Shown here: positions 14,220-48,144 of the stretch, piece by piece | Layout of the letters: every line of letters starts with the position of its first letter | Numbering within the stretch: the first letter of the stretch is position 1 | Origin: Hysterangium stoloniferum | Lineage: Eukaryota > Basidiomycota > Agaricomycetes > Hysterangiales > Hysterangiaceae | Direction of reading: 5' to 3' | NCBI GenBank assembly: GCA_015178975.1 | Contig: WHVD01000032.1 | Location: forward strand, 1-64,000 | Length of the DNA: 64,000 bases | Program-made: the position numbers and the translations under genes | Notes under the pieces: model-generated | The model's input: only the letters and a program-made list of their open reading frames with translations | Databases searched by the model: none | What the model was told of the DNA's origin: nothing

Positions 14220-14503
14220 GTTTTTGTGGTGCTATTCCTAGACCATATAACTTTCTGGTTCTCTGAGTGAGGTGGCAGTACTTGTTGTAAATGGATAAGG
14301 ACTAAACAAATACAAATCAATTTTATATAACCCAAAATATGCAGTGAATTCCCAACCGCAGTGACCTGAGCCCTAATGCTCATGATCCCTCGCTAACCCA
14401 AATCCCAGGAAGGTCAACACACTCCCTCGAGCATAAGGGGTTCACAGTGACCATCCCCACTCCCTCAAACAGATATCCATACCATCCAAGTCTCCCCACA
14501 GCC

Positions 14504-15089
14504 TGTTACGACCCGTTCCCGGATGTTTCAATATCCGACTTCCAGTCTCCCACTCCCGACTTCCAATCCCCGACTTCCGACTTTTGACCTCCGACTACGG
14601 AACATCATAGTTACCGTATCATCCGCATTCTTCCCTTGTTCCGCATTTGGTAATTTGTCCGTTGACAAGTATTCACTCGTTTGTTTGTTATATTCCTGTT
14701 ACGGAATATTGCCTTCCTAATATGTCTTATTGTATTTCCGTTTTAAGAACACTTCCGTTTCCGTCTTATTATGGTCTTAGTTTGTAGTACAATAACGAGC
14801 AGACTTATATTAGTTTCCACGAATTTGTACGTTACCTTAGATCTGATATCGACTTAGTTTCTTATTCCTTCTCCCGTCTTTCTGTACGCTCGATATTCAG
14901 AACTCTTCGGAACTCTGAATATCCGTAACTCCCATCATAAGTCTCACCTCCGAAATTAAGGACATTGAGCGTTTGCGTAGAGGCGCAGCACATAAGCTGA
15001 AGCTGACGTCCTGACCCTATCTAGTAGTTCCCGACTTCCCGGTGACTTCCCGATAGTTCCGGAATAAGTTCCCGACACGGCACTTAACA
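14504..15089 (+). repeat. 5' LTR of Gypsy A (LTR family 1)
   Basis: 586 bp, TGTTACGACC to CACTTAACA. It contains a TATA-like TTATATTA at 14805-14812 and, 30 bp downstream, AGATCTGATAT at 14839-14849, which is complementary to the primer site at 15092-15102. A conserved block shared by all LTR families here (GCGCAGCACATAAGCTGAAG) lies at about 14983-15002. Confidence 0.95.
14805..14812 (+). promoter_or_regulatory. Predicted LTR TATA box
   Basis: TTATATTA lies about 30 bp upstream of the start of the self-complementary block at 14839, the distance expected between a TATA box and a transcription start. Confidence 0.5.
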
Positions 15090-15091
15090 GT

Positions 15092-15102
15092 ATATCAGAT
15101 CT
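15092..15102 (+). promoter_or_regulatory. Predicted self-priming primer-binding site
   Basis: ATATCAGATCT starts 2 nt after the 5' LTR. It is the exact reverse complement of AGATCTGATAT at 14839-14849, the predicted 5' end of the transcript. Tf1/sushi-type elements prime reverse transcription with an 11-nt fold-back of this kind. I did not find a convincing tRNA match, although the first bases resemble the initiator-tRNA type TATCAGA. Confidence 0.6.
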
Positions 15103-15123
15103 CAACTCTGCGACTTGCTCATC

Positions 15124-16349
15124 ATGGGTCCCAAACGCAAAGCTGCCGAAGGACCATCCCAACTTCAATCCCCGTTGCAACTTTACACCACTCAACCTGA
15201 AACCCCAATTCAGCCGACAACATCAGCTTCAGTCGAAGAAGTTACCGAGGAGGTTACCGAGGTAACAAAGGATCCCAATGTTCCCCACACTTCCGACAAC
15301 GAAGCAGAAGATCAGCCGGAGACATTGAAAAAGAAATCTTCCGACGAACCGACTGAAATGTTGTTTATCAACTCCATTGTGAAATTCGCTGACTATTTGA
15401 AATCCGCTGAGGATAGTAAAGAATCATCCTGCACCGGAGTCAAAGAACCCAAACCTTTTACCGGCAAGGATCCGAAAAAATTGAAGAATTTCCTTCTCCA
15501 ATGCCTTTCAGTTTCCGTGATCGACCCAATGCTTTTAAATCCGACAGTCAAAAAGTCAATTTTGCACTCTCGTATCTCAAGGATACCGCTCAGGATTGGT
15601 TCGAACCCGGACTATCCAGAATATCCGACAAGACACCTGTATGGCTCGACGACTGGGATGCTTTTGTGGAAGAACTGGAAACTAATTTCGGACCTTACGA
15701 TCAATCCGGCGAAGCAGAAAATGAACTAATGACGCTCAAGATGAAGGACAATCAACGAGTTTCCGATTATCTCGTCAAGTTCAATACCCTCGCCGCACGA
15801 TGTGGATGGGACGATTCCGCCCTCAGGCACCATTTCTATATGGGACTTCCGTCACACCTTAAAGACGAAATCTGCAAAGATGGAAAGCCGAAAACTCTCC
15901 AACTCATGCGGATGAAAGCTCAAACATCCAATGCCCGTTATTGGGAACGAAAAGCCGAGGTTTCTCGAGAGAACCCGACGGAACGTTCTCAGAACAACAA
16001 GGCGTCGACTAGCAAGTCTTCCGGCAACAACTCAGGCAATAATACCGGCTCTGGCACTAATACTGGCAAATCAAATTCCGACCGGAAGAAAGACAAGAAA
16101 TCCAACAAGGAGAAACAGTCAACTTCCGACAAACCCGACATTTCCCATTTGTTGGGTACCGACGGTAAACTCACCCCGAAGGAGAAACAACGGCGTATGG
16201 ACAACGACCTCTGCCTTTTCTGCGGAAAAGGCGGACACAAGGTTTCCGACTGTACCGTTAAATCTAGCTCTTCCAAGGCTTGCACAGCAACTTCCACTAC
16301 GACTACAACGTCTAAGGAAAAACCCGCCATGGAGTCGAAAAAAGAGTAA
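15124..16349 (+). pseudogene. gag: Gypsy A gag, one frameshift
   Basis: Structural protein of the virus-like particle. The start at 15124 gives MGPKRKAAEGPSQLQ. A frameshift near 15500 separates GKDPKKLKNFLLQCL from the next frame, which holds the capsid core (LSYLKDTAQDWFEPGL, ETNFGPYDQSGEAENEL, YLVKFNTLAARCGW) typical of Ty3/Gypsy gag. The C-terminus is rich in S, N and K and ends with one zinc knuckle CLFCGKGGHKVSDC (CX2CX4HX4C, about 16212-16253). The frame stops at 16349 and protease begins within about 75 bp in another frame. Confidence 0.9.
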
Positions 16350-16423
16350 GCAACCCTCCGGAATCTGCACGGACAGAGGGTTGTGTTGACTCTCTCCATG
16401 TTTCCGAGGTTATCCGTCTCAAC

Positions 16424-18363
16424 GTGTCCGCTCTCTCTAATCCCGATTCATTATTTGTAAAACTCGTCTCTGACTTTCTTGGAAAGTTAGTGTTCCAAGC
16501 TCTAATAGATTCCGGCTCCACACACTGTTTTGTAGATACCACCTTTGCCACGAAACATAATCTGAAACTCCATTCTGTTCCTGCAATTTCCTTACGTTTG
16601 TTTGACGGCACTAGCAATACGGCAATTACTCAAGCCTGCGACATGTCTATCCGGTTCCCTTGTGGAACATCCCAGACGGTTACCTTTTTCGTAACACAGT
16701 TGGACTCTAGCTGTTCGGTAGTTCTTGGATACAACTGGCTCACCTGATATAATCCGTTGATTGACTGGGTATTGGGCAGTATTACTTTCCGGACTCCCCA
16801 CACTTCCGTTTCTCCTGCAGCGTCTTTTCCGGCCAACGCCTTTTTGGCATCAACGGCACCTCCGGCTTCTACCGAAACTTCCGAGCCTCCAAAAATCTCT
16901 CTCATCAATGCTTCGGCATTTGTTAGGGCGAGTAAACTGGATGGTTCGCAATGTTTTTCAATCAGCTTAAAAGTTGATGAAGCATCTGGTCGTTTTGCGA
17001 CTCCAGAATTATCTGAGCTAAAAGCCAACCTGGAAGGAGTTCCCGAAAAATACCATGATTTCACGGACATTTTCAGTAAGCAAAAAGCTGACAGGCTTGC
17101 ACCACATAGGCCTTATGACTTAAAAATCGATATTGAGCCCGGTTCAAACCCTCCGCTAGGACCTATTTACCCATTATCCCAATCGGAACTTTCGTCTATT
17201 TGGGAGTTCCTGGATGAACATTTGTCGATAGGTTTTATCCGTCCCTCAAAGTCTCCGTATGGAGCACCCGTCCTTTTCCTCCGTAAAAAGGATGGCTCCC
17301 TTCGACTCTGTGTCGATTTCAGAGGATTAAATTCCATCACACGGAAAGATAAGTATCCACTGCCACTCGTTACCGATTTACTCGATGCCCCACGAAAGCT
17401 CGGATTTACACCAAAATAGACCTCAAACATGCCTATCATTTGGTCTGAATTGCCGAGGGTGACGAATGGAAAACTGCTTTTCGGACTCGCTATGGATCCT
17501 TTGAATGGTTGGTTATGCCATTCGGCCTTACCAACGCCCCTTCCGCTTTTCAACGTTTTGTTAATGATATATTTTCCGACATGCTTGACGTATGTGTTAT
17601 AGTCTATTTGGACGACATTTTGGTATTTTCCGAGGATCCCGCTCTTCACGATGAACAGGTCCATGAAGTCTTCCGAAGACTCCGTAAAAACGGTCTTTTC
17701 GCCAATGGTAAAAAATGTTATTTCAACATGGATTCTATTGAATACTTAGGTTTCGTCATCGGCCCTGATGGTCTCCGTATGGATGAAACCAAGGTTCAAG
17801 TTGTCCGTGACTGGCCCGAACCACAGAAGGTCAAGGACATTCAATCATTTTTAGGTTTCGCCAACTTTTACCGTCATTTTATTCGGAACTACTCGGATAT
17901 TACAGTACCGCTCACTCGTCTTACCTGTAAAACTCAACCATGGGTTTTTGACGATAAATGCCGCTCCACCTTCCAGACTTTAAAAAATGCTTTCACTTCT
18001 GCCCTGATCCTTTCCCATTGGAAACCTGATGTTCCGATTATTGTGGAAACCGATGCTTCCGATTATGCAATTGCCACGATCCTTTCCATTCAAGATTCCG
18101 ACGGTGAAATTCATCCGGTCGCATTTCTTTCTCGGACACTTTCAGTATCTGAACTCAATTACGACGTTCATGATAAGGAACTTTTGGCTATTTTTGAAGC
18201 TTTCAAACATTGGTGCCATTATCTCAAAGGTTCCGCAACTCCCGTTGACGTTGTTACCAATCACAAAAATCTCGAATATTTTTCTACCACTAAACTTTTA
18301 ACCCGCCGGCAGGCCCGTTGGTCTGAATTCCTTTCTGCTTTCAACATGATTATCCGTTTCTGA
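16424..18363 (+). pseudogene. pol: Gypsy A protease, reverse transcriptase and RNase H
   Basis: Protease: FQALIDSGSTHCFVD (active-site DSG) at about 16494-16540 and VVLGYNWLT. A TGA at 16745-16747 follows NWLT, where related elements have R (CGA). Reverse transcriptase: [27 protein letters not shown], a frameshift near 17395, [13 protein letters not shown] followed by a TGA, FGLTNAPSAFQRFVND and VYLDDILVF (catalytic YLDD at 17605-17616). RNase H: VETDASDYAIATILS, DVHDKELLAIFEAFKHW and VVTNHKNLEYF. A TGA at 18361-18363 splits it from the integrase part. At least three stops fall where CGA to TGA explains them. Confidence 0.93.
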
Positions 18364-18462
18364 CCCGGACGTCTTGGTGGAAAGCCAGATGCCATGACTT
18401 GACGATGGGACATCTATCCTAAAGAGGGGGAAAGTAACTATGCTGTTGTTAATCCGCATAAC

Positions 18463-20034
18463 TTGAAACCGGTTTTTACAATGCAACAACTTTCCGCATC
18501 TATCCGAGCAACTTCCCTTTACTATCCAATTATGCGTAGCGTCATTATTATGGACATTGAGCAATTACATCAAGATATCCTTTCCGCACTCACTTCCGAC
18601 CCGGCCCTCAAGCCACATTTAGAAGTTCCCGACAATCCCGACCAACCCCGATGGTCACAAGACTCTCAAGGTTTTATCCGTCTCGATGGACGTATCTACG
18701 TTCCAGATTCCGACAATCTCCGACTCCGCGTACTTCAGTATAAACACGATCATCCAATCTCCGGACATTACGGCATCAACAATACTCTTGGTTTAATCCG
18801 TAGAGAATATACTTGGCCCAAACTCCGAGATTTTGTAACTCAGTTCTGTAAGTCATGCACCACCTGTTTACGCTCCAAAACCCAGAGGCATAAGCCGTAC
18901 GGCCTTCTCAAGCAACTCCCGATACCAGAAAAACCTTGGAATTCAATTTCCATGGATTTTATCGAACAACTCCTGACTTCCGAAGGCTTTACATCCATTC
19001 TAGTTGTTGTGGACCGATTCTCGAAACAAGGCATTTTCATACCCACTCATGATACAATCATGTCCTTACAATTAGCGGAACTTTTCATTATTCACGTATT
19101 TTCCAAACACGGAGTTCCATCTCACGTAACTTCCGATCGAGGCTCCAAGTTCGTCTCCCATTTCTTCCAGGCCCTCGGAAAAGCCCTCGACATGAAACTA
19201 CACTTCACCTCGGGATATCACCCGGAAGGTGATGGACAAATGGAACGCGTTAATCAAACACTGGAACAATATCTCCGCATCTATTGTAATTACCAACAGG
19301 ACAACTGGAAATCCCTTCTTCCGATCGCGGAATTCGCCTACAATAACTCTCTGAATGCAACCACCGGCATATCTCCCTTCTTCGCCAATAAAGGCTATAA
19401 TCCAAATCTCACAGTACATTCCGAACGAGATTTGGCTTCTGTCCGTGCTCAAGAATTTATTACTGATCTCGACGAATTACATCAGGAACTTCGGAAAGCT
19501 ATTTCTTCCGCACAGGAATATTATCAACGTTCCGCGGACAAAAACAGGATCCCGCCTCCTAATTTTAAAATTGGTGATCAGGTTTTTGTAAAAGCTCAAT
19601 TCTTCCGTACTACCCGACCTTCTAAAAAACTCGCTGAGAAATTCTTAGGACCTTTTGAAATTATAGCACAAGCCGGTTCACTTTCATGGACTCTCCGTCT
19701 TCCCGACAGTATGCGAGCAGTCCACCCCGTTTTCCACGTCTCCATGCTAGAACCTTGTGTTCCTAACTCATTCCCGGAACGTATTCAACCTCCGTCCCCT
19801 CCAGTCATCATTGATGGAGAACCCGAATTTGAAATTTCCGAAATTTTGGATTCTAAAATCGACAATCGCCAACGTACTTGTAAATTGCTCTATTTAGTCA
19901 AATGGGCAGGTTATAAAGGTACTGACGAGGAAACTTCATGGATATTGGCCACGGAACTTGGACATGCTATGGAAATTGTTACTGACTTCCACACGGCTTA
20001 TCCAGGCAAACCCGGACCTTTATCATCACTCTAA
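18463..20034 (+). CDS. int: Gypsy A integrase with C-terminal chromodomain
   Basis: A 523-codon open frame. Zinc-binding HHCC domain: KHDHPISGHYG then CKSCTTC. Catalytic DDE core: SMDFIEQLL, VTSDRGSKFVS and YHPEGDGQMERVNQ, followed by WKSLLPIAEFAYNNS. The GPY/F-type region reads KFLGPFEIIAQAGSLSW, then RAVHPVFHVSMLEPC. The C-terminus is a chromodomain (FEISEILDSKI, LYLVKWAGYKG, TSWILATEL), which in chromoviruses directs integration to marked chromatin. This is the only long unbroken part of pol; upstream stops mean it is no longer made as one polyprotein from this copy. Confidence 0.95.
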   Translation: MKPVFTMQQLSASIRATSLYYPIMRSVIIMDIEQLHQDILSALTSDPALKPHLEVPDNPDQPRWSQDSQGFIRLDGRIYVPDSDNLRLRVLQYKHDHPISGHYGINNTLGLIRREYTWPKLRDFVTQFCKSCTTCLRSKTQRHKPYGLLKQLPIPEKPWNSISMDFIEQLLTSEGFTSILVVVDRFSKQGIFIPTHDTIMSLQLAELFIIHVFSKHGVPSHVTSDRGSKFVSHFFQALGKALDMKLHFTSGYHPEGDGQMERVNQTLEQYLRIYCNYQQDNWKSLLPIAEFAYNNSLNATTGISPFFANKGYNPNLTVHSERDLASVRAQEFITDLDELHQELRKAISSAQEYYQRSADKNRIPPPNFKIGDQVFVKAQFFRTTRPSKKLAEKFLGPFEIIAQAGSLSWTLRLPDSMRAVHPVFHVSMLEPCVPNSFPERIQPPSPPVIIDGEPEFEISEILDSKIDNRQRTCKLLYLVKWAGYKGTDEETSWILATELGHAMEIVTDFHTAYPGKPGPLSSL

Positions 20035-20120
20035 TCTTTCTGTTCTTTTCTGTTCAGTTTCCAACACTTCCGTTTTCACACTCGTTTTAGGTTTTGCAAG
20101 TCAAAAAAATATTATTAAAT

Positions 20121-21263
20121 CTATCTCAAAGTCTCTGACACCCCAAATCCACCTTCCATCCCAACTTCTGGCTCTTCAGCAATTTCCGCACTTTCCACCA
20201 TATCCTGTACCTCTTCATCTTCACTCTCTGATTCTTCCAGCCCTTTTCCCGATACCCACCTCTTTTCAACACATTCCGCCAATGGATCATTAGTTTTTTC
20301 CCATGCCTTATCGGAAAACCCCTCGGATACTGCGATTACACCAATGCTAACCATTATCTTCTCCAGGAAATCGTTTTGCCTCTGGAAATTCTGGATCAAC
20401 GAACGGAAACCTTTCTCCTGGATATCATTATGGCGATCCATTGTATCCCGCATTTTCATGACTTCTGTCCCAATAAAAACCAACGCGTCGACGGTTTCCT
20501 TGAGAAGCTCAATGCCCGTACTATCCGTTTTCGACGCTTCAGTTTCCGTAGCTTTGGCCGCTCCTGAACTTCCCACATCATTAGTTTTCGGAGTCTTCTC
20601 ACCTTTCGGAACCCTTTTTGAGGCAAGGGTGCACGGAAGTTTGAGAACTGCGCAGGGATAGCAAGTTCCACCCCATTTTACCCTCTGTTTCCAACAAGTC
20701 ATGTTCCGTATGGAACATCGATAACACGGAGTTTCGTGGACGACTTCCATTCATTCCGGAGCTTTGACCTTTGGTTTCTGTTTCGGAAGTTAAACGACTA
20801 CCGTTTCCTTTACAGATGCACTCACTTTAGGACTCGAAGGTCCAGCTTCGCCCTCTACTTCCACCTCCACGGCTTTTCGCTGCATCAATAGTTATCGGTT
20901 GGAATCACGGAATGTATGGGTCAAACTTACCTTTCCTTCCCTTATCTCCTTCAGTTTTTCTGCCACCTCCGACTCCCGCTGTAATCTTTCCACCTCCTCT
21001 TTCTTTTTCTGCGCCTCCGCCGTTTTCCGTATCCATGCTTCTTTTTCCGCCTTCACCCGCTCCAATTCCCGCTTTTCCGCCTCCTCCACATCCTTCAACT
21101 CCTGCATCAACGCTCTTTCCTCCTCCTCCTGTCGTCGCTTCAACTCCTCCATTTTCTGGCATTTTTGTTGAAGTTCTGTGACCTTCGACATCTTTTGAAG
21201 TATGGATATTTCGGTATCTGAGTCTTCCGGGGTAGTGATGAACAATGGCCGACAAATCGACAT
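20121..21263 (-). CDS. Antisense accessory gene of Gypsy A: coiled coil plus Zn2Cys6-like cluster
   Basis: Encoded on the strand opposite to gag-pol between integrase and 3' LTR. Exon 1 (start ATG 21263, or the internal ATG 21191) encodes a charged coiled coil (CQKMEELKRRQEEEER, REIRE-type heptads) to EGK at 20931. Introns at 20880-20930 (51 bp) and 20778-20825 (48 bp) have GT-AG ends; the second removes a TAA. Exon 2 reads RKAVEVEVEGEAGPSSPK. Exon 3 has one TGA (20751-20753) just before MEVVHETPCYRC, then the cluster CX2CX6CX10CX2CX6C, a helical region and an acidic end (EESESEDEEVQD). The cysteine spacing matches Gal4-type Zn2Cys6 clusters, but the basic residues usual between cysteines 2 and 3 are missing. 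The same gene with the same introns is in Gypsy B. Function unknown. Confidence 0.75.
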
Positions 21264-21435
21264 ACAAGTTGTGGTTGAAGAAACAAAAACGTTAATTCGA
21301 ATATTTGGAGGTTTTTATACTCAGAATAACAGCCGAAACTCTCACCTCCATATTTGCGTAAATTTCACGACACATAACAATCAGCCGTCACTTCAAACAC
21401 TTAGTACCTAATCGCCTCTATGGGATTTCGGCCTA

Positions 21436-21447
21436 ACAGGGGGGTAC
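21436..21447 (+). promoter_or_regulatory. Polypurine tract of Gypsy A
   Basis: AACAGGGGGGTAC lies directly before the 3' LTR at 21448, the position of the plus-strand primer in LTR elements. Confidence 0.7.
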
Positions 21448-22033
21448 TGTTGCGACCCGTTCCCGGATGTTTCAATATCCAACTTCCGGTCTCCCACTCC
21501 CGACTTCCAATCCCCGACTTCCGACTTTTGACCTCCAACTACGGAACATCATAGTTACCGTATCATCCGCATTCTTCCCTTGTTCCGCATTTGGTAATTT
21601 GTCCGTTGACAAGTATTCACTCGTTTGTTTGTTATATTCCTGTTACGGAATATTGCCTTCCTAATATGTCTTATTGTATTTCCATTTTAAGAACACTTCC
21701 GTTTCCGTCTTATTATGGTCTTAGTTTGTAGTACAATAACAAGCAGACTTATATTAGTTTCCACGAATTTGTACTTTACCTTAGATCTGATATCGACTTA
21801 GTTTCTTATTCCTTCTCCCGTCTTTCTGTACGCTCGATATTCGGAACTCTTCGGAACTCTGAATATCCATAACTCCCATCATAAGTCTCACCTCCGAAAT
21901 TAAGGACATTGAGCGTTTGCGTAGAGGCGCAGCACATAAGCTGAAGCCGACGTCCTGACCCTATCTAGTAGTTCCCGACTTCCCGGTGACTTCCTGATAG
22001 TTCCGGAATAAGTTCCCGACACGGCACTTAACA
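21448..22033 (+). repeat. 3' LTR of Gypsy A (LTR family 1)
   Basis: 586 bp, same length as the 5' LTR with about a dozen substitutions, mostly C/T or G/A. It begins TGTTGCGACC and ends CACTTAACA, followed by the target duplication CAGCC. Confidence 0.95.
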
Positions 22034-22084
22034 CAGCCCGAGCACTCCCTGAAGTTCAGCAACTCTCAATCTGAACCAAAATGC

Positions 22085-22548
22085 ATCTACCACTTATATC
22101 TGACCTGCTTGACACTCCATGGAATGCCCAGATTTATACCAAGATAGACCTTAAACATGCCTACCACTTGGTCCAGGTCTCTGCAGGAGATGAGTGGAAA
22201 ACCACTTTTAGGATCTGATATGAGACTTTTGAGTGGTTGGTGATGCCCTTTGGGCTCACCAATGCTCCATCTGTTTTCAACATTTTATTAATGATATTTT
22301 CTCTGACATGCTTGATATATGTATCATTGTTTACTCGGACGACATTCTTATCTACTCTGAGGACCCCATGGTACATGACACATAGGTCTGCAAAGTTCTC
22401 CAGAAACTCACACAACATGGTTTATTTGCAAATGGTAAAAAATGTACTTTTGACATGGACTCCATGGAGTATTTAGGTTTCATAATGGGACCCAACAGAC
22501 TCCACATGGATGAAGCCAAAGTACAAGTCATCAAAGATTGGCCAGAAC
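22085..22548 (+). pseudogene. Gypsy B reverse transcriptase fragment
   Basis: Reads [38 protein letters not shown], then a TGA after FRI, FEWLVMPFGLTNAPS, frameshifts, and the active-site region around YSDDILIYSED (YSDD instead of the YLDD seen in Gypsy A). It ends IKDWPE where the solo LTR begins. Confidence 0.85.
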
Positions 22549-23543
22549 TGTTACGACCGGAAATCCCGCCGGACTCTGGGCACTAACTTATATGCACCCA
22601 CACCCTATACACACCCATTATCAGTTTACCGGAATTCCCACCGGACTCTGTACGTCAGACTTGTCTACATTTGACTTCGTTACATTGTGTTTCAGTCACT
22701 GGAAAACCCACCAGACTCTGTCTCTGTCTATATCCAACCTCATCCCACACGTCAGTCACTGGACTCCACTCAGAAAACCCGTCATCCCTCTAACAGAGCC
22801 CCATTCCCATTTTAGTCAAATGACCTGTCACAATTCGGACTCCGCTTCCACTCCGTTTCCCGTTATGGTTTATGATTTGTCACTATTTGGACTCCACTCC
22901 ATTCTGTCCTGTTCCTAACACCAATTTGGTGTTTACTATTTCTGTTTTATGTTTTGCTCATTTCATTTCATCATTACTGGATTCGGTATGACATTCACTC
23001 CATGGTCTATTTAAACTGGCAGATGTTGTACATACAATCCAGTCAGAAAATCGGCTTAGATTCCCCCCAGTAATCTAATACATTTTCCACTCTAAACTCC
23101 TACTTGAATTACACCGCTCACACTAGTTGGAGCCCACAGGCTCCGGTGCATCTATCTCTCTTAACCTATCTCAACTCACGACCCATGACCTCTGACCTAC
23201 AACCTCTCAACCCACGACCCCTTCCCAGGCTCCCTGGGATTCCTGTCCACCTGTCTGAAATTGGACAACATGGTCTAGCGAGGGCACAGCCTATAAGCTG
23301 AAGCCAAGTCCTACCAGATATTCCGCAGGTTTCTGGAGGATGGATCCCTTCGACTATGTGTTGATTTTAGAGGACTCAATGCTGTCACCAAGAAGGATAA
23401 GTATCCACTCCCACTTATATCTGATCTGCTCGATGCTCCGTGGAATGCCCAGATTTATACCAAAATAGATCTCAAACACACCTATCATTTGGTCTGGATT
23501 GCCATGGGTTTCTCCGGAGACCCACTGTGTATGTACCCTAACA
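22549..23543 (+). mobile_element. Solo LTR (LTR family 2) with a reverse-transcriptase insert
   Basis: Starts TGTTACGACC and ends CCCTAACA, flanked by the 5-bp duplication AGAAC (22544-22548 and 23544-23548). It matches the solo LTR at 43223-44062 except for an extra stretch of about 170 bp near 23337-23506 that encodes [16 protein letters not shown] and [16 protein letters not shown], a piece of Gypsy B reverse transcriptase. Confidence 0.9.
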
Positions 23544-23548
23544 AGAAC

Positions 23549-25770
23549 CCAGAAAAGTCAAAGATATACAATCTTTCCTTGGCTTTGCTAATTTTTACTG
23601 ATGGTTTATCTGTGGATATTCTGAGATCACGGTCCCCTTACTTGTCTTACATGCAAGGGTGTCCCATGGACTTTTGATGATAACTGTTGAAAAGCTTTCA
23701 ATTTTTTAAAAGACTCTTTTTCTTCAGCTCCACTCCTTTCACATTGGAAACCAGACATTCTGCTCATTGTTGAGATGGATGCCTCAGACTATGCACTTGG
23801 AGCCATTCTGTCTATCCAGGACTCTGATGGAGAAGTCCACCCTGTGGCATTTCTATCCCAGACTTTCACCAGACCAGAGCTCAATTATGATGTCTATGAC
23901 AAGGAACTCCTAGCAATTTTTGCAGCTTTCAAATTGTGGCGACACTATTTGGAGGGTGCAGGAATTCCAATTGATGTTGTAACAGATCATAAAAACCTAG
24001 AATACTTTTCAACTACTAAATTCTTGACCCACCAGCAGGCCTGTTGGTCTGAATACTTATCGGCTTTTAATATGATTATCTGTTTTTGACCCAGCCACCT
24101 TGGCAGTAAACCCAACACTTTGACTAGAGGATGGGACATCTATCCTAAAGAGGGGAGTAATAACTATGCCACAGTAAACCTGCATAACTTGAATTCCATT
24201 TTCATGAATCAGCAGCTTACTGCATCAGTCCATGTGACTTTTCTCATCCATCCCATCATCCGTGGAATTATTGTTATGGACATTGAGGAACTACATCAAG
24301 ATATTCAATTGGCAATTCCATTAGATCCAACAACCAAAGCACATCTTGACAACCCCATGGACCCCAGACAACCCTGGTGGTCTCGTGACCAGCATGGTTT
24401 CATTAGACTTGACAATTGTATACATGTACCAGACTCCAACAGTCTCTGCCTCCAGGTTCTCCAGTACAAACACAACCATCCACTCCTGGGACATTTTGGG
24501 TTCAACAAAACTCTATCATTAATAAGAAGAGAATACACTTGGCCTGGACTCTGAGATTTTGTTAAGCACTATTGTAAATATTGCATTACTCATCCATGCT
24601 CCAAATCACAGTGTCACAGACCATACAGCCTTCTGAAACAATTCCCAGTACTGGAACACCTGTGGAATTCCATCTCTATGGATTTCATTGAACACCTACT
24701 GGACTCTGAAGGCTTTTCCACCATTCTAGTCATTGTTGACAGATTCTCAAAACAAGGTATTTTCATCCCTACACATGATACCATTACATCTGTGCAGTTA
24801 GTGGAACTTTTTATCATCCATGTATTTTCCAAGCACAGAGTTCCATCCCATGTAACTTCTGATTGAGGATCAGAGTTTGTATCTCATTCTTTAGATCTCT
24901 GGGGAAATCCTTGGACATGAAATTATACTTCACGTCTAGATACCACCTGGAAGGTGACAGACAAACCGAGCATGTCAATCAGACATTGGAACAATATCTC
25001 TGTGTATATTGCAACTATCAACAGGACAATTGGAAATCCTTGTTACCACTTGCAGAATTTGCTTACAACAATGCACCCTCAGCCACTACTGGCATTTCCA
25101 CATTCTTTGCAAATAAAGGGTACAATCTGAATATTACAGTATGCCCAGAACAGAATCTTGCCTCTGCCCATGCTCAAGAGTTCATCACAGACCTCCATGA
25201 GCCACGAGGAACTCTGGACTGCAATAAAATCTGCACAAGAGCAATATCAGCTTTCAGTGGACAAAAACCAGATCCCACCACCCAACTTCAAAACAAAATT
25301 GGTGATCATGTTTTTGTCAAAGCTCAATTCTTCCAGACTACCCATCCATCAAAGAAACTCACTGAAAAATATTTAGGTTTGTTTAAAATAATAGCACAAG
25401 TAGGTTCAGTTTCATGGACCCCATGGCTTCTGGATAGCATGCATGTGGTACACCCAGTATTTCATGTTTCTATGCTAGAACTGTGTACTGCTAACACTAT
25501 CCCAGACCACATGCAATCTCCACCCCCTCTGGTCATTATTGATGGAGAACCCGAGTTTGAAATCTCACAAATTTTAGACTCAAAAATAGATAAGCATTGA
25601 TGTACTTGTAAACTGCTTTACTTGGTCAAGTAGGTGGGTTATGAGGGCACAGATGAAGAGACATAATGGATTTTGGCCATAGAACTTGGTAATGCCACAG
25701 AGATTGTCACTGACTTTCATACAGCTTACCCACTGAAATCCCGACCACTATTCTCTCTCTAGCTGCATTC
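23549..25770 (+). pseudogene. Gypsy B RNase H, integrase and chromodomain
   Basis: RNase H: VEMDASDYALGAILSIQD, DVYDKELLAIFAAFKLWRHY, DVVTDHKNLEYFSTTKFL. Integrase: HNHPLLGHFGFNKTLSLIRR, a TGA after WPGL, SMDFIEHLLDSEGFSTI, VTSD followed by TGA then SEFVS in place of RGS, HLEGDRQTEHVNQTLEQYL, LPLAEFAYNNAPSATTG. Chromodomain remnants follow (LGLFKIIAQVGSVSW, FEISQILDSKID, LLYLVK, WVGYEGTDEET). Several stops fall at positions where Gypsy A has CGA or TGG. Downstream at 25915-25960 lies an A/T-rich tract. Confidence 0.88.
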
Positions 25771-26001
25771 CACAGACCCTGTGTATGTATATGTTAGACT
25801 CACTTCATTTTTCCCTGTCACCCTATGTCTCTCTTTGCTTTTACAGGTTTCTGACTTGTTTTACTTAAGCCTTAGTGGACCTCCTGTGGACTTTTATGTT
25901 TCACACATTTATTTTTTTTTTAAAAAAAAGAAGAATTAATTAAAAATTATTATTTGTTTGTCTTTCATTCTACATTTATGGGGCTATGCTTCTGCCCACT
26001 T

Positions 26002-26917
26002 TCAATAAACTCCTTGTGGAGTTCTACCAACTCCTCGGGGACCCATCCTCATCCTCCCTGGACTCCTCAGAACTCCCAACCTGGGGCTCTGAATAAACAT
26101 ACCCACCATATTCCACCAAGAACACCCAGAACACCCTGCAGAGTCTCTGGAGTGTCTCCACCACAGTCTCCTGCATCCAGTTTCTCTCTTCAAGCAACTG
26201 GTTCTGGGCCTCTATACCCATGGCTATTCACCTCAAAATGTCCTCCAAGCCCCCAGGCCTGTCTGAGCCACCCACTTCCCATGCCATGGACCCCGTGGGC
26301 TCATGGACCAGTGAGCACCTCGCTTTGAGGTGTGCACATGGCCAACAGCCCAGTCCCCACCTGGATTCCCAGTAACAGTCTGTGTTCTGGTCATTGCAAC
26401 TGGAACACCACGGGTTGTTCTTTGCCTCCAAGCATGGAGCCATTTTCCTTGTCTTCTGTTAATGTGGTCAGTACCTGGGCATTCTGTGGACCTGCCACTT
26501 ACCTTTTGAGGGCTCTCAGCCTCCCCCTCAGACTTGGACTCCACTTCTACTGCCTTGTGGCTAGAAACCAAAAGTCAGTAAAGTTCGATTAGGCAAATCA
26601 TTGGGACTTACCTTTCCCATGGCAACTGTGGCCCTCTCCATGGCTGCTTTGGCCCACTCCATGGCAACCCATGCTGCCTCCTCTCCATCCTTTTTCCTCT
26701 GCTCCTCAGCATCCTTCTCTGTGACCAGCACTGCCTGGTACTCCTTTTCCAATTCCTTCTCAGCCTCTTTAGCCCTCCTCTCTGCTTCCTCCCTTTGTCA
26801 ATGCTGCTCCTCCTGCTGCACCAAAATTTGGGCAGCAGTAAGTGGAGCCTGGTATGGGGAGCCTGTGGAGGGCCTGGCAGTGGCAATTGGTTTGTGAGGT
26901 GTTGGTTTTGGACCCAT
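26002..26917 (-). pseudogene. Antisense accessory gene of Gypsy B
   Basis: Orthologue of the antisense gene of Gypsy A. Start ATG 26917 (MGPKPTPHKPIATARPS), then a coiled coil with one TGA (after EEQH). Introns at 26561-26611 (51 bp) and 26456-26502 (47 bp) sit at the same places as in Gypsy A, flanking the exon HKAVEVESKSEGEAESPQK (Gypsy A: RKAVEVEVEGEAGPSSPK). Exon 3 has the cluster CX2CX6CX9CX2CX6C (CSSCNDQNTDC and CWPCAHLKARC), a TGA near 26229, then QNQLLEERNWMQETVVETLQ and the acidic end SEESREDEDGSP. Shared motif spacing and intron positions show a real gene rather than an antisense shadow. Confidence 0.75.
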
Positions 26918-27056
26918 AATGACTGGATGATGGGGGTATAAAAAAGAAGAAGAAATTTTATTACTAGATCACATGACCTTTTGACACATATGTGTAACTG
27001 ACAAACTTTATCATGTTCTAGAGCCTCTATGGGACTTTGGCATAAAGGGAGGGTAC

Positions 27057-27826
27057 TGTTAGGACCAGAAAACCTGCCAGGCTCCAGACCCCACCCTATA
27101 TGCACCTGACTCTCTATACCAGGTTATAGCTAACCAGAAAACCCACCAGGCTCTAGACCCCACCTTATATGCACCTGACTCTATACCCACCAAGCCAAAG
27201 TTCACAACCAGACAACCCACCAGGACCTGTGAACATCAAACCTGTCTATGTCCAACTCCATTCCACATACCAGTCATTGGACTCCACCTGGACAACCCAT
27301 CAGCTCTTTAACTGAGCTCTGCTCCTGTTATGGTCAAATGACCTGTCATGTTTCAGACTCCACCCCCATTCTGTTCTGTCCCTAACACCTAGTTTGGTGT
27401 TTATTCATCCTGATTTATGTTTACTTGTTTAGGCTTTTACTATTACCAGATTTAGTATTGTATACATTCCACAGTCTATATAGTCTAGCTGATGTTTGTA
27501 CATACAATCCAGTCAGAAAATCAACCAAGTTTCCCCAGTAATGCTAACACCTATTCTACTCTATCTCCACCTCTCATCTTAAGCATAACACTCTTGACCA
27601 CATTGGAGCCCACAGGCTTTCTGACTGGTCCTTCAACATCAACTTTCGACCCATGAACCTTTGACCCAGCAACTATACCCAGACTCCCCAGGTTCTCTGC
27701 CTGCTTGTGTGAAAGTGGATGCCACCATCTCACGAGGGTGCAAGCTATAAGCTGAAGCCAAGTCCTACTGGAATATCTGTGGGTTTCTCTGGAAACCCTC
27801 CATTAAGCTCTGCACAACCCTTAACA
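27057..27826 (+). repeat. 3' LTR of Gypsy B (LTR family 2), decayed
   Basis: Preceded by the purine tract AAAGGGAGGGTAC. It starts TGTTAGGACC and follows the order of the solo LTR at 43223-44062 (including TCAAATGACCTGTCA and CACCTAGTTTGGTGTTTA) to AAGCTGAAGCCAAGTCCTAC and the end CCCTTAACA. Confidence 0.8.
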
Positions 27827-28058
27827 ACATATCACATACAGCCATTCTTTGAAAATCACAGATCTTCCTTAGTGGACACAGAATTTATAACCAAATATAT
27901 AGCAAGTGAACAGAAGATTGGCCACTACTCCAGGGACTTTATGCCAGAGGGGCTGGAGCAAGCCATAGGACCATTTCAGACATCTCCCCTGGGACTTATC
28001 CCAAAGCTGAATTTGAGAATGTACCACATGACACAAGGCCTATTGTTTCCCTGAGATT
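27827..28058 (+). pseudogene. Reverse-transcriptase-like fragment, possibly DIRS/Ngaro type
   Basis: The frame reads IGPFQTSPLGLIPK and then MTQGLLFP, preceded by ITKYIASEQKIGHYSRDF. The pattern GPF-x-TSPLG-x-IPK resembles the first reverse-transcriptase block of tyrosine-recombinase retrotransposons in basidiomycetes. Only about 75 residues remain, so the assignment is tentative. Confidence 0.35.
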
Positions 28059-28636
28059 ATTACAACCCATTCCCTGATACTTCAATATCCAATATCATCC
28101 AAAACATCCAACCTCCACCCCAAGTCTCCAATATGGCTTCCCACCTCAATATCTGATTCTGACTTCCAACTATGGAACATTCATAGTTCCTGTACTTCTG
28201 GATCTCACCTTTGTTCCATATTTGGTAACTTGTTGACTGACAAGTACATATTCACTCGTTTACTCATTGTATTCCCATTTTGGAATACTTTCCTTAGTCC
28301 ATCTTATTTTATTCCCATTTCGGAATACTTCCAATTCCATCTTATTGTGATCTTAATTTGTAGTACAATAATGAGAAAACTTATATTAGTTTCCATGAAT
28401 TTGTACTTTACATCAGATCTGATATCAACTTAGTTTCTTATTCCTTCCTTCTCTCTGTTGATATTCAGAACTCTTTGGAACTCTGAATATCTGTTTCCTC
28501 TGGTGTAACATTCCTGTCTCTGAAATTAAGGACTTTGAGCATTTGCGTAAAGGTGTAGCACATAAGCTGAAGCTGACATCCTGACCCTATTTTGAAGTTT
28601 CCAAGTTCTTGGTCATTTCCCAATAGTTCTGGAATA
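28059..28636 (+). repeat. Decayed LTR of family 1, cut by a Tc1 element
   Basis: Follows the Gypsy A LTR from ATTACAACCCATTCCCTGAT (Gypsy A: GTTACGACCCGTTCCCGGAT) to ATAGTTCTGGAATA, with nearly every CpG replaced. AGATCTGATAT, the self-priming block, is still intact near 28415. The Tc1 element inserts at the TA of GGAATA. Confidence 0.85.
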
Positions 28637-29597
28637 CAGTGGCTCAAAAAATCATTCCAATGTTTTGTTATTTTGGAAAGATTGATTCAATGCAAACACC
28701 AGAGATCAGATAATTCCTAAAGTATTACCCAATATAGTATAGTATTTTAGCTTGAAGCTGATCCTTGGCCTATGTAATTTGAATCCAAATTGGTGGAATG
28801 ATAAATAAAACAACATAATCATTCATTGGAAGGATTTTTTGACCCTCTATTATTTTAACAGAAAAGTTACTATTTCAGTAAAAATACTAGTCTAAACCAT
28901 TTGTGAGACCAATAAATATGTCATGTGACTTTGTTTACATCTGTTTGACATGTTGACAATTGGTTCAACCACTTCTTAGCCTTTACCACCACTATGAAGG
29001 CTATTTCTACTACTCAGCATTTTACTATTATCTCTCTTCTTCAAGAGGGGTATTCCCACACTCAAATCCAGACTAAAACTGGTTTAGGGAGGGCTACAAT
29101 CAATAGGATCAAGGCTGAAGTGCTTGCAGATAAAGAAAACAACCCAGCTGGCCATCTTTCCAAGCTTACCACTTATAACAAACAGTCAATTGTCCATCAA
29201 ATTAGCTCTGGAAAACTTGACAATGCCGTTCAAGCTGCCCAATTCATTGATTCTGTCATCCCCAACTCTGTCATTCTTCAAACAGTCAGGAATTCACTCA
29301 AGAAAAATGGTTTTTACTCTGCAACAAAGAGGAAAGTATCTATGTTGAAGAAGACTCATCATCAGAAGCAACTTGAGTTTGCTCAGTACCATGAAAACTG
29401 GACTGTGGAGGACTTCAAAAGGGTGTTGTGGACAGATGAGACAAAGATTAACTGAATTGGATCTGATGGAAAGGTATATGTTTGGAAAGAATGGGGGGAA
29501 CCAATATCTAACTGAACCACAATACCAATTGTCAAGCATGGAGGAGGAAATAATCACATGGTATGGGGCTGTATGGGGTGTAATGGTGTGGGAAAGT
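28637..29597 (+). mobile_element. Tc1/mariner element, 3'-truncated (Tc1-1)
   Basis: The left terminal inverted repeat starts CAGTGGCTCAAAAAATCATT after a TA. The transposase starts at 28994 (MKAISTTQHFTIISLLQEGY) with two helix-turn-helix blocks, then ENWTVEDFKRVLWTDETKIN, a TGA, and GSDGKVYVWKEWGEP. In another frame HMVWGCMGCNGVGKL follows, where the element breaks off into the minisatellite at 29598. The second catalytic D, the E and the right end are missing. Confidence 0.88.
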
Positions 29598-29830
29598 TAT
29601 ACTCCCCATCTCATTTATACTCCCCTTCTCATTTATACTCCCCTTCTCATTTATACTCCCCTTCTCATTTATACTCCCCTTCTCATTTATACTCCCCTTC
29701 TCATTTATACTCCCTTCTCATTCATACTCTCTTTCTTATTTATACCCTCTTCTCATTTATACTCTCCTTCTCATTCATACTCCCCTTCTCATTCATACTC
29801 CCCTTCTCATTCATACTCCCCTTCTACTCA
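29598..29830. repeat. 18-bp minisatellite
   Basis: About 13 copies of CTCATTTATACTCCCCTT, the later ones degenerate. Because 18 is a multiple of 3 it makes an artificial open frame rich in SPSHLY. It replaces the distal half of Tc1-1. Confidence 0.9.
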
Positions 29831-30004
29831 TCTGTCTGTCATTAAATATTTTAGTATAAATTATTGTCTTATATTCTACTAATCTCCAGTTCAAATATTG
29901 AGTTAGAACCTACCTGTTAGGAACTATGTCATTTAGACCCCTATGTGTGTTTTCAATCTATAATCTGGCATCCTGATATTGGTATTTCTGATACAACATC
30001 TCTG

Positions 30005-31293
30005 ATGACCATGTACTGACAACTCCCACCTTATAGCCACCCGACCTCTACCTCATGCATCAGTCATCAGACAACCTGCCAGGACCCACACTTGTCAAAC
30101 CTACCTATGCCTGACTCTGCTGGGACCCATGCATGTCAAGCCTGTCTATGTCTGACTCTGTTTTCATGCACCAGTCACCAGACTCTGCCTGGACAACCAG
30201 TCAGCTCTCTAACTGAGCTGCTCCCATTATAGTCAAATGACCTGTCATGTTTCAAATTCTGCCCCCATTCTGTTCCATCCCTAACACCTAGTTTGGTGTT
30301 TACTTGTCCCAATTTATGTTTACTCATTTAGTCCTTCATTATTACTGGACATAGTATTGCATACTGTTATGACCCGTGCACTCGGCACACCGTCGGACCT
30401 GATCGGACCTCATGCAAAACTCCAATCGCTCACAAACCATTGGTATTCCGACTAACCCCATTAAGCACCTTCATTGTTCCTAATTAGTACTTCCATCCCC
30501 CCTTTATCCTATACAACCAGCCTTACGCCTTTTCTGCCCCTGTAGTAGTCTACGTCCAGATTTGTAATGTTCCATCTATTGCTCTACATTTTCACGTCAC
30601 TTTATATGTAGTTCCATCTGCTCCATTAGTAATTTCCTTTGTTCCGTTTTCATTTGGATAAGCACTGGTTTTCTGCATATATGCCACTCATGTATCATAG
30701 TATTAGGACAATCAGAATATTGACTCAGAACACGTGTATACATCTCTCATAGTTCCACTCTGAGTAGTTCCGCTCCTGCCCTTGCTTGCACTCGCTCATT
30801 CTTGGTCTCTGACCTCACAACCCACTACTATCCATCGGCCTCTGATCAGTGATTTACTGAGAGGACTATATGACAGGATAAGTTTTCTGCCTGCCCAAAA
30901 TTTAAGGACACCCGATGGAATTTGTGAGGGTGCAGCACATAAGCTGAAGCCAAGTCCTCCCCATCAGCCTACCAACATTAGTCAGTTTTCAGTTCTTAAC
31001 ACATACATTTCACAGTCTATATAGTCTAGCTGATGTTTGATACAATCTGGTCAGAAAATCGACTAAGTTTCCCCAGTAACTCTATCACCTATTCTATTCT
31101 ATCTCCACCTCTCCCTCACAACACTATCAACCCTGTCAGAGCCCCTGGGCTTTCTGACTAGGTCTTATGACATCAACTTTCACACATCGACCTATCAACT
31201 ATACCTGGACTCCCTGTGTTTCCCATCTGCTTGTTTAAAATTGGACACTATGATCTCACAAGGGTGCAGCCTAGAAGCTGAAGCCAAGTCCTA
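30005..31293 (+). repeat. Decayed LTR of family 2, interrupted by a solo LTR
   Basis: Left part (about 30005-30364) and right part (31002-31293) follow LTR family 2: TCAAATGACCTGTCATG, CACCTAGTTTGGTGTTTAC, then TATATAGTCTAGCTGATGTT, AGTCAGAAAATCGACT and AAGCTGAAGCCAAGTCCTAC. It is interrupted by the solo LTR 30365-31001 and its end has expanded into the 21-bp minisatellite. Confidence 0.8.
30365..31001 (+). mobile_element. Solo LTR (LTR family 3)
   Basis: 637 bp from TGTTATGACC to TTCTTAACA with the 5-bp target duplication CATAC (30360-30364 and 31002-31006). Shares AATTTAAGGACACCCGA and GCAGCACATAAGCTGAAGCC with the family 3 copies at 35233, 42866 and 51214. CpG-rich compared with its surroundings, so younger. 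Confidence 0.92.
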
Positions 31294-31518
31294 CCAGAAT
31301 ACCCACAGGTTTCTCCAGAATACCCACAGGTTTCTCCAGAATACCCACAGGTTTCTCCAGAATACCCACAGGTTTCTCCAGAATACCCACAGGTTTCTCC
31401 AGAATACCCACAAGTTTCTCCAGAATACCCACAGGTTTCTCCAGAATACCCACAGGTTTCTCCAGAATACCCACAGGTTTCTCCAGACTACCCACAGGTT
31501 TCTCCAGAATACCCACAA
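31294..31518. repeat. 21-bp minisatellite grown from an LTR
   Basis: Eleven copies of CCAGAATACCCACAGGTTTCT-like 21-mers with very few changes. The unit corresponds to the 3' end of LTR family 2 (ACCAGATATCCTGCGGGTTT at 44010). Open frames on both strands here are by-products of the period of 21. Confidence 0.93.
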
Positions 31519-31559
31519 ACCCTCCATTGACTCATTATCAGTACCCCTTCCATCACCAC

Positions 31560-32170
31560 TCACAGCACCCCTGACATGTGTTTTAACCCTCTAGCATTCC
31601 ATTCCATCTCCATCTCATCTGCACCCCTGTCACCATTTCCCTTTACACGTCTCATTTGCCACTGCAGACCCCTTTAGTATTGTTTAGTATTATTTAGTAT
31701 TTTACATTTAGTCTCCCTGCCTTGTCATCAACTTCTTATGATCTATTTCATCCTTCACTTCCTTGATTGGCTCTCCAGTCATCTGTCTCATTGTAGTATA
31801 AAATATTCTTCATGTATGCTACAGTTCTTCAGTTCAAAAATTGACTTAGATTACCCTCTACTAGTTCTCAGTCTCTCTCTTCCCCTCTCAATACCCTTGA
31901 AGATGTTCTTTGGCAAGCCATGAACTCTTACCTTATGACTCTTAGTATTTCAGCCCACCCGTCCATTGAGCTAAGTGTTCATCTTCACTTTTATTGTACT
32001 ATCTGGTCCGTTTGAAATACCAGAGCACCCTAACAGTTTGTGTGAAGGTGCAACACATAGGTTGAAGCCAAGCTCCACTACATTTATAGAGTTGGACCTC
32101 CTGACTAGTACAATCTCTATTGTCAACCTCCCAATTAGTTCATCTCCAATCATCAGACCCCCAACTTAGA
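31560..32170 (+). repeat. Decayed LTR-like sequence
   Basis: Has the layout of the other LTRs: a TATA-like TAGTATAAAATATT near 31795, CAGTTCAAAAATTGACTTAG near 31830 and GTGCAACACATAGGTTGAAG near 32048. Ends and target duplication are not clear. 32171-32690 holds no gene I can recognise. Confidence 0.5.
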
Positions 32171-47266: not shown

Positions 47267-48144
47267 GGTGGTGCCCACTGCAAAATAGGTAGTTGTTGTT
47301 GTTGTGGAACTGGATTTCCAGGTAGTTGGTGAAGCTGTGGTGGTGCCCACTGCACAATAGCTTGTTGTTGTTGTTGTGGAACTGGATTTTCAGGTGGATG
47401 GTGTGGTGGTGCCCACTGCAAAATAGGTTGAGGTTGTTGTTGTGGAACTGGATTTCCAGGTGGATAATGATGTTGTGGTGGTAGTAGTTGTATAGCTGGA
47501 TTTCTAGGTGGATGGTAATGCTGTGGTGGGGCTAACTGCAAAATGGGTCCCTGTGCTTGGAGTTGTGGCATGGCATTAACAGGTGGATGACCATGGTGCA
47601 GTGGTGCAGATTGGACAATTTTAGCAGCTTTATTTCCTCATCCATGACCCCACCTAAGAGGCTGTAATGGTGGCAAATCTGCATACTGCCTAAGCAAAAG
47701 ATCCACTGCATCAGAGCCAACTGTGGCAGAGCCAACTGTGGCAGAGCCAACTGTGGCAGAGCCAACTGTGGCAGAGCCAACTGTGGCAGAGCCAACTGTG
47801 GCAGAGCCAACTGTGGCAGAGCCAACTGTGGCAGAGCCAACTGTGGCAGAGCGACGGGCAGTAGAGCGACGGGCAGTAGAGCGATGGGCAGTAGAGCCAC
47901 TTGCATGAGAGCCACTTGCAGCAGAGCCACTTGCAGCAGAGCCACCTGGCTGAGCAACCAAAAATGGATTATCAGATTGACCTCTACCAACAGGAAGATG
48001 GAGGTCTCGGAATGGTTGAAGAGGAGGTGGAATATTAGAATTCACAGCTAAACGCTGATGACAATCAAATGGAGATGTCATTTGCAATTGTGCCCTATGC
48101 TGCCTTCGTTCCTCTGCCCGATCACGCTCAGGTGTTTGATCCAT
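47267..48144 (-). pseudogene. Helitron N-terminal low-complexity region
   Basis: From the ATG at 48144 the frame reads MDQTPERDRAEERRQHRAQL, a basic start similar to other fungal Helitron proteins, then nine SATVG repeats. In another frame QWAPP and NPVPQQQQ repeats follow; the same Q/P repeats continue beyond the solo LTR at 46150-46530. Repeat-driven frameshifts make the exact protein uncertain. Confidence 0.6.
47716..47850. repeat. 15-bp minisatellite coding for SATVG
   Basis: Nine exact or near-exact copies of GCCAACTGTGGCAGA, in frame with the Helitron protein on the minus strand (SATVG). Related imperfect units (GCGACGGGCAGTAGA) follow to about 47940. Confidence 0.95.

Follow-up and report, generated by a model that had tools for sequence, protein, structure and literature searches.

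An intron-containing antisense gene with a six-cysteine cluster in Ty3/Gypsy chromodomain elements of the basidiomycete Hysterangium stoloniferum

The elements and the antisense gene in the window

We analysed a 64,000-nucleotide stretch (hereafter the window; positions 1 to 64,000 of the forward strand of WHVD01000032.1, assembly GCA_015178975.1) of Hysterangium stoloniferum, a truffle-like fungus described as an ectomycorrhizal basidiomycete of Phallomycetidae (PMC7550596). The window contig is contig C246 of the assembly, which comprises 111 Mb in 554 contigs. The window contains a Ty3/Gypsy chromodomain element (chromovirus), element A, with LTRs, target duplication, gag, protease, reverse transcriptase-RNase H and integrase all present. 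Its 5' LTR (14504..15089, plus strand, TGTT...AACA) and 3' LTR (21448..22033, plus strand), both of 586 bp, pair with each other at 575 of 586 identical positions (transitions make up 10 of the 11 differences), and a 5-bp target-site duplication, CAGCC, flanks the element at 14499-14503 and 22034-22038. Between the LTRs, also on the plus strand, we found gag (15501..16349; Pfam Retrotrans_gag, 3.4e-15), the aspartic protease part of pol (16424..16747; Pfam Asp_protease_2 and RVP_2), the reverse transcriptase/RNase H part of pol (17509..18363; Pfam RVT_1 and RT_RNaseH), and the integrase with SH3_Tf2-1 and a chromodomain (18463..20034; Pfam Integrase_H2C2, rve, SH3_Tf2-1 and Chromo). In this integrase SH3_Tf2-1 scores 71.4 bits, and Chromo scores 24.8 bits against a cut-off of 25.1. 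The pol of the window copy is split over several open reading frames, and a search against Rfam gave no match within 14400-28700.

On the minus strand, element A carries an antisense gene with three exons and two phase-0 introns (copy A). Exon 1 (20931..21263) is charged and rich in E, K, R and Q, and is followed by intron 1 (20880..20930; 51 nt, GTAAGT...CAG), exon 2 (20826..20879; RKAVEVEVEGEAGPSSPK, whose GPSSPK end is shared with a copy from another family, family C, described below), intron 2 (20778..20825; 48 nt, GTGAGT...CAG), and exon 3 (20121..20777), which encodes a basic head resembling a nuclear localisation signal (NLS), the cysteine cluster, a linker, a predicted long helix and an acidic tail. 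The six-cysteine cluster, CX2CX6CX10CX2CX6C, was located by pattern scan at 20631..20726 (minus strand) and is conserved across copies. A TATA box on the same strand (TATAAAAA, 21312..21319) lies 56 bp before the ATG.

A second, decayed copy (copy B, of a separate family B) lies further along the window, also on the minus strand, with exon 1 at 26612..26917 (stop inside), intron 1 at 26561..26611 (51 nt, as compared to 47-50 nt in six relatives), exon 2 at 26503..26560 (58 nt, out of frame), intron 2 at 26456..26502 (47 nt with a branch-site-like CTGAC motif; 48 nt in six relatives), and part of exon 3 at 26231..26455, which contains the cluster at 26315-26407. Scanning all six frames of the window for CX2CX6CX8-11CX2CX6C gave exactly two places, 20631-20726 and 26315-26407, both on the minus strand, and the same pattern had zero matches in 30 two-base-block shuffles of the window.

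An earlier note on this DNA had placed the two copies and given their intron lengths (51/48 nt in A and 51/47 nt in B), and recomputation returned the same values. Its claim that both window elements encode a three-exon cluster gene stands as to exon plan, introns and cluster, but neither window copy is intact, since copy A is interrupted by a premature in-frame stop codon at the start of exon 3 (20751-20753), and copy B has the stop in exon 1 and the 58-nt exon 2. The 'coiled coil' that the note had read in exon 1 was not borne out by a simple heptad test on four copies (85, 429, 92 and 408 of 500 shuffles attain the observed value); exon 1 is a stretch in which E, K, R and Q make up 0.62-0.64 of the residues.

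Tandem repeats were also seen in the window. One of about 70 bp units (82% alike, 27064-27224) lies in the LTR start adjoining copy B and may hold regulatory sites; short arrays occur elsewhere at 60086-60505 (20 bp units), 47660-47959 (15 bp), 31252-31566 (21 bp) and 29568-29867 (17-18 bp).

Copies, promoter motif and linkage to the integrase across the genome

A DNA search of the genome listed 40 places for family A, the family of copy A, and a protein search with its exon 3 gave at least 150 places at 71-100% identity, with no internal stop in 115 of the 150 listed exon-3 matches (counted by eye). For comparison we used 80 family-A copies: the window copy, the 39 other places of the DNA search (not picked for intactness), and 40 more distant copies, all picked from protein-search matches without a stop in exon 3. 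Intron 1 (50-55 nt) has GT-AG borders in 77 of the 80 copies (exceptions: L100, L108 and L112), and intron 2 (47-51 nt, save one truncated case) in 78 (exceptions: L059 and L108). Exon 2 is 54 nt long in 78 of the 80 and exon 3 is 657 nt long in 59. The gene is in frame in 64 copies and open from ATG to stop in 36; of the latter, 24 belong to the near set of 40, taken irrespective of intactness, and 12 to the more distant set of 40, taken for an exon 3 without a stop. Many family-A copies have premature stops at the same few codons of exon 1 (35, 43 and 44), in a CpG-transition-like pattern suggestive of cytosine methylation, or of a RIP-like process, in this genome.

The cluster of family B was likewise found at a minimum of 150 genome places (56-100% identity), from which six copies without a stop (L118-L123) were chosen. 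Their introns are 47-50 and 48 nt long, have GT-AG borders in six of six copies for both, and carry branch-site-like CTRAY motifs (read by eye). Exon 3 is open over the at least 150 codons covered in these six copies; exons 1 and 2 are open throughout in L118 only, and in the other five either exon 1 is lost or stops or frame changes occur.

Family C was found through 24 integrase matches that are 85-86% identical to that of family A, the lowest among the at least 150 listed. These matches comprise G000:C377:331092-331622 and 23 more, many of them of the same score, and several have long open pol frames, of up to 1302 codons; family C looks young and was probably active recently. Exon 3 of family C lies beside 20 of the 24 integrase matches, 117-162 nt past the end of pol and on the opposite strand, and searches with it gave at least 150 genome places at 67-100% identity. 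The one family-C copy that was read (L134 and L136) runs ...KKKREGK / 50-nt intron / RKAATPSESDDEEGEEDEEDAPGPSSPK / 47-nt intron / KQKQAPK...CNRCTKRGRTCHPRTNGRGRTCQECADQKLGC..., to which ...KEIREGK / RKAVEVDVEGEAGPSSPK / KPKVKAPE... corresponds in family-A copy L043. The C-terminus of this family-C copy is atypical, as most others match about residues 1-146 only.

Families A, B (six copies) and C (one copy) share the same exon plan and cysteine spacing, and have a TATA box at a similar distance. In family A, 77 of the 80 copies have TATAAA on the antisense strand, 56 or 57 bp before the ATG (exceptions: L060, which is cut off there, L099 and L102); it sits within the conserved block TGAGTATAAAAACC, between the polypurine tract and the ATG and outside the LTR. 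In family B, motifs like TATATAAAA or TATTTAA lie 51-60 bp before the ATG in five of the six copies (no exon 1 start was found in copy L120, and copy B of the window is without a TATA box), and in the family-C copy TATAAAA lies at -57. That three families have a core promoter motif at a similar distance speaks for transcription of the antisense gene in its own right, which is predicted here. Beside this motif, we noted by eye an E-box-like block, GTGTCAAA(N2-3)TCAYRTGA, that is common to family-B copies L118-L123 and the family-C copy and whose start lies some 35-50 nt upstream of the TATA box; only GTGTCGTGA is found near that position in family A.

The antisense gene accompanies the integrase. 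At 41 of the best 50 of at least 150 integrase places, exon 3 lies on the opposite strand, 84-100 nt past the end of pol; seven places have exon 1 only among the matches listed, and two have neither exon listed. (The count used 70 exon-3 matches, 69 of the at least 150 from the protein search and one from the DNA search, and nine of at least 150 exon-1 matches, chosen by contig, so misses may reflect matches outside this set.) Four of the seven places with exon 1 only have it at the expected 881-901 nt from the end of pol, and the other three at 122-392 nt, which indicates that exon 3 is largely lost in these three copies.

We also searched for relatives beyond this genome. A single-sequence protein search with exon 3 gave no match at E 0.001, and a profile search with A and B gave one match, P0121 (BU17DRAFT_80596 of Hysterangium stoloniferum). 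P0121 was rejected as a foreign relative, as its residues 65-201 match C334:95402-95812 at 99% and it is a mis-modelled family-B copy of the same genome. The public gene model of P0121 is wrong (half of the cysteine cluster is missing), and it was the only copy found among public proteins. The protein database does include Gypsy proteins of basidiomycetes (of 7995 scored, 4165 are integrase relatives at E 1e-10, with Trametes, Pisolithus, Paxillus, Scleroderma and Cyclocybe named among the 120 listed). Protein searches with A and B found no relative outside Hysterangium stoloniferum, in a word-based search that could miss relatives at a distance like that between A and C; the searches with family C covered its own assembly, Pfam and solved structures. 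An integrase search of viral contigs gave none, and one of genome contigs gave a single contaminant contig, L135 (VBAU01000528.1), with an integrase at 41% identity and no antisense cluster; this contig is filed under a Bacteroidetes MAG yet carries a Gypsy pol, and is probably eukaryotic contamination.

Selection on the antisense protein and its likely nature

Using the 36 open family-A copies (two of them, L066 and L067, are identical), we obtained a pN/pS of 0.266 for the whole gene. By region, pN/pS is lowest in the basic segment and cluster (0.158), followed by the tail (0.222), exon 2 (0.229), the helix (0.243), exon 1 (0.309) and the linker (0.398). For exon 3, pN/pS is 1.67 and 1.11 in the remaining antisense frames and 1.18, 0.28 (0.278) and 1.55 in the sense frames, which have 4.9, 2.6 and 8.7 stops per copy, respectively. 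The low value of the second sense frame is expected, as third positions there face antisense third positions. Coding on the sense strand of exon 3 was rejected, since its three frames carry 2.6-8.7 stops per copy. A codon model on the family-A tree gave an omega of 0.42 overall, with a grid optimum of 0.25 for the cluster, and omega=1 fits worse for all sites (2dlnL 188), exon 1 (32.5), exon 3 past the cluster (111) and the cluster alone (35). All regions tested have pN/pS values below 1, and no sign of positive selection was found. With the age of the pairs compared, pN/pS declines, being 0.45 in the 27 youngest (pS <0.05) and 0.25 in 218 with pS 0.3-0.5, as expected if fresh copies decay freely and only functional copies spread. 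Divergence at the three codon positions is.045/.049/.098 in the 40 unchosen near copies of family A,.063/.070/.163 in the 36 open copies, and.080/.084/.195 in all 80 copies (introns: 0.15 and 0.20). In the six family-B copies, selection on exon 3 is weaker (pN/pS 0.43).

Each of the six cluster cysteines is kept in 79 or 80 of the 80 family-A copies; among the other cysteines of copy A, those at codons 4 and 35 are variable, and the one at codon 298 persists in 68 of the 80. From these patterns in the DNA, the antisense gene is almost certainly protein-coding and selected as part of the element, and the elements seem to need it, since selection has kept it. The conserved, putatively spliced antisense gene of the earlier note is upheld by the comparison of copies, the codon statistics and the three element families; homologues in other elements, whose absence would have spoken against the note, are present (at least 150 places listed for each family), and the cluster cysteines are kept, in a region of low dN/dS.

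Between families the protein changes fast. Aligned with the family-C copy, family-A copy L043 is identical to it at 30 of 100 residues of exon 1, 12 of 18 of exon 2 and 37 of 156 of exon 3, and the integrase ends of A and C are 86% identical (177 residues) as compared to 24% for exon 3. Exon 3 of copy A is 21-23% identical to the six family-B copies, and that of C is 29-30% identical to three B copies and 24-26% identical to four A copies. The six cysteines and very few other residues are invariant across the exon 3 alignments of A, B and C. Part of the faster change of the antisense protein relative to the integrase could reflect module exchange between elements.

Zn2Cys6 proteins have the spacing pattern CX2CX6CX5-12CX2CX6-8C, and the spacing of the antisense cluster fits it. 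Against a cut-off of 21 bits, Pfam Zn_clus (PF00172) reaches 10.2 for one A copy and 14.9 for B, and has no match in two other A exon-3 sequences or in C. The fit to Gal4-type spacing that the earlier note pointed out is upheld, but the Pfam profile falls below the cut-off, or has no match, in all five exon-3 sequences; nothing else scored above the Pfam cut-off in the antisense-protein sequences scanned. The note had also remarked that basic residues are missing, which holds for the residues between cysteines 2 and 3 in families A (SIRNMT) and B (NDQNTD) but not in the family-C copy (TKRGRT, basic; one copy). A search of the genome with PF00172 gave 42 places, and ten stretches drawn from these host places were compared with the antisense cluster by hhalign (probabilities 36 and 46%, E 4e-4 and 2e-4, the six cysteines in register). 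Membership of the Zn2Cys6 class is suggestive on this evidence, and the cluster probably binds metal.

The alignment of the cysteines, column by column, with the ten host Zn_clus stretches also bears on where the gene came from. An ancestral element may have captured a host Zn2Cys6 transcription-factor gene in antisense orientation, an origin compatible with any of the functions discussed below; we regard such a capture as possible but doubtful, as none of the 42 PF00172 places is a listed place of the antisense gene (compared by eye).

AlphaFold models built from A-first and B-first alignments have a pLDDT below 50 for the cluster in both. Past the cluster, a long helix is predicted at residues 75-149 in family A (pLDDT of at least 90 over about 81-130) and at residues 68-122 in family B (pLDDT about 85). 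In a heptad test on one sequence each, shuffles reached the observed value in 3 of 1000 cases for C, 49 of 1000 for A and 251 of 1000 for B. The C-terminal 60 residues contain 18-19 acidic and 6 basic residues (three A copies). Across exons 1-3 runs a KRK...KKPKVK segment, which we take to resemble a nuclear localisation signal. Searches of solved structures gave nothing relevant to A with B, or to C; there is no Pfam bZIP match in A exon 1 or in exon 3 of A, B and C, and no Pfam TRP28 or SMC match in the antisense-protein sequences scanned.

Possible roles and known relatives

We propose that a group of chromodomain Ty3/Gypsy elements has an accessory gene that would be transcribed in antisense, driven by a private TATA promoter located between polypurine tract and ATG, with two short introns spliced out of the message. 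The predicted product, of about 280-350 aa, would have a charged N-terminal region, a basic NLS-like segment, the six-cysteine cluster, a long helix and an acidic tail. It may enter the nucleus, held together by its zinc cluster and paired through its helices, and act there on the DNA or chromatin of its own element (LTR transcription or the pre-integration complex) as a family-specific regulator. Retrotransposition goes through the sense-strand genomic RNA and leaves antisense introns in place, so the introns of this gene can persist because the genomic RNA is the other strand. Of the functions considered, a nuclear, family-specific regulator best fits the combination of basic segment, cysteine cluster, helix, acidic tail and fast divergence. 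We give a regulatory role of the protein a little under an even chance, and the proposal as a whole (an accessory element gene, TATA-driven and spliced, for a nuclear zinc-cluster protein acting as a family-specific regulator), which extends from sequence comparison to function, an even one.

The protein could instead serve the particle or the pre-integration complex, as a chaperone, in nuclear import, or in tethering beside the chromodomain integrase, and not transcription. The basic NLS-like segment, the charged regions and a cluster that in A and B lacks the basic loop for DNA contact would suit such a role, and a similar one is discussed for plant antisense ORFs (PMC7264820). Structural parts, however, are usually made from genomic RNA and need no antisense promoter of their own, and an exon 3 at 24% identity between A and C is far less conserved than the integrase end (86%), so we consider a particle role unlikely. 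Less likely still is an action against silencing by the host (RNAi or DNA methylation), with the rapid change of the protein reflecting a race between the two: it does change far faster between families than the integrase, and the CpG-transition-like recurrent stops and the 10 of 11 transitions between the LTRs hint at methylation-linked decay, but pN/pS below 1 in all regions tested shows no sign of positive selection, and Pfam scans gave no likeness to a known suppressor. That the antisense RNA acts in cis, as double-stranded RNA or by interference, and that the open frame is incidental is highly improbable and largely refuted, as the codon-position pattern, the dN/dS, the frame kept across two introns and the invariant cysteines are protein-like, even though the antisense unit is convergent with pol and overlaps with the genomic RNA, and other retroelements are known to have antisense non-coding transcripts (PMC7264820).

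The rapid divergence of the protein, set against a fixed cysteine frame, points to specific recognition. Extra antisense genes of retrotransposons have been noted for years, mostly in plants, without a known function, and here a single fungal genome has a clear signature of one, with fixed introns, a promoter motif, invariant cysteines, hundreds of copies and three divergent families; with such a signature, what these genes do becomes directly testable. The introns provide an assay-ready mark, since cDNA from a spliced antisense message would lack them. In a wider and tentative reading, which we would not expect to hold in full, mushroom-forming fungi host a Gypsy lineage encoding an antisense, spliced zinc-cluster regulator with a private TATA box, which would be independent of the deltaretroviral antisense regulators though alike in place, and of which each family's fast-diverging version, on a fixed cysteine frame, would read its own LTR or chromatin target.

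By its place, its direction and its presence in most family copies, the antisense gene fits aORF-3R, the class of antisense additional ORFs known from plant Ty3/Gypsy elements, where examples include Grande gene23, RIRE2, Retand TRP28 and PvRetro13 (PMC7264820, PMC11963269). As described there, the plant genes likewise lie between pol and the 3' LTR, in antisense and in most copies; the fungal gene differs in its basidiomycete host, its two fixed phase-0 introns and its six-cysteine cluster. Grande gene23 is described as having its own promoter and a nuclear product (PMC7264820, PMC11963269), TRP28 occurs in the antisense ORFs of Retand, for which DNA binding has been suggested (PMC11963269), and the parts of PMC7264820 available to us describe no antisense ORF with a cysteine cluster. 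The word 'antisense' is absent from PMC3248453 (on fungal LTR elements), and PMC5408684 deals with extra ORFs of rotifer elements. In the parts at hand of the mostly open-access literature on antisense genes in fungal elements, no three-exon cluster gene is described.

The antisense protein resembles PF00172 proteins in its CX2CX6CX9-10CX2CX6C spacing, its predicted post-cluster helix and its acidic tail, and differs from them in scoring below the Pfam cut-off and in the basic loop, which is absent in A and B and present in the C copy. Gal4-type activators have a helix after the cluster and an acidic tail. Among fungal elements, Zhao et al. (2011) reportedly found an antisense gene, brtn, in the Boty-like elements of Botrytis. 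This gene is mentioned in PMC8365987 and cited in PMC7264820. As described, Boty is also a fungal Gypsy-type element with an extra antisense gene; its host is an ascomycete, and the likeness is one of description.

The message of HTLV-1 HBZ is known to be spliced. HBZ is an antisense regulatory protein encoded near the 3' end of its retroelement (PMC11963269), and its promoter sits in the 3' LTR (PMC7264820), whereas the fungal TATA box lies between the polypurine tract and the ATG; the parts of the fungal protein scanned have no bZIP match, and we claim no descent. Antisense extra genes between pol and the 3' LTR are already known from plants and from Boty of Botrytis, and the gene described here adds to them an intron-bearing variant with a cysteine cluster.
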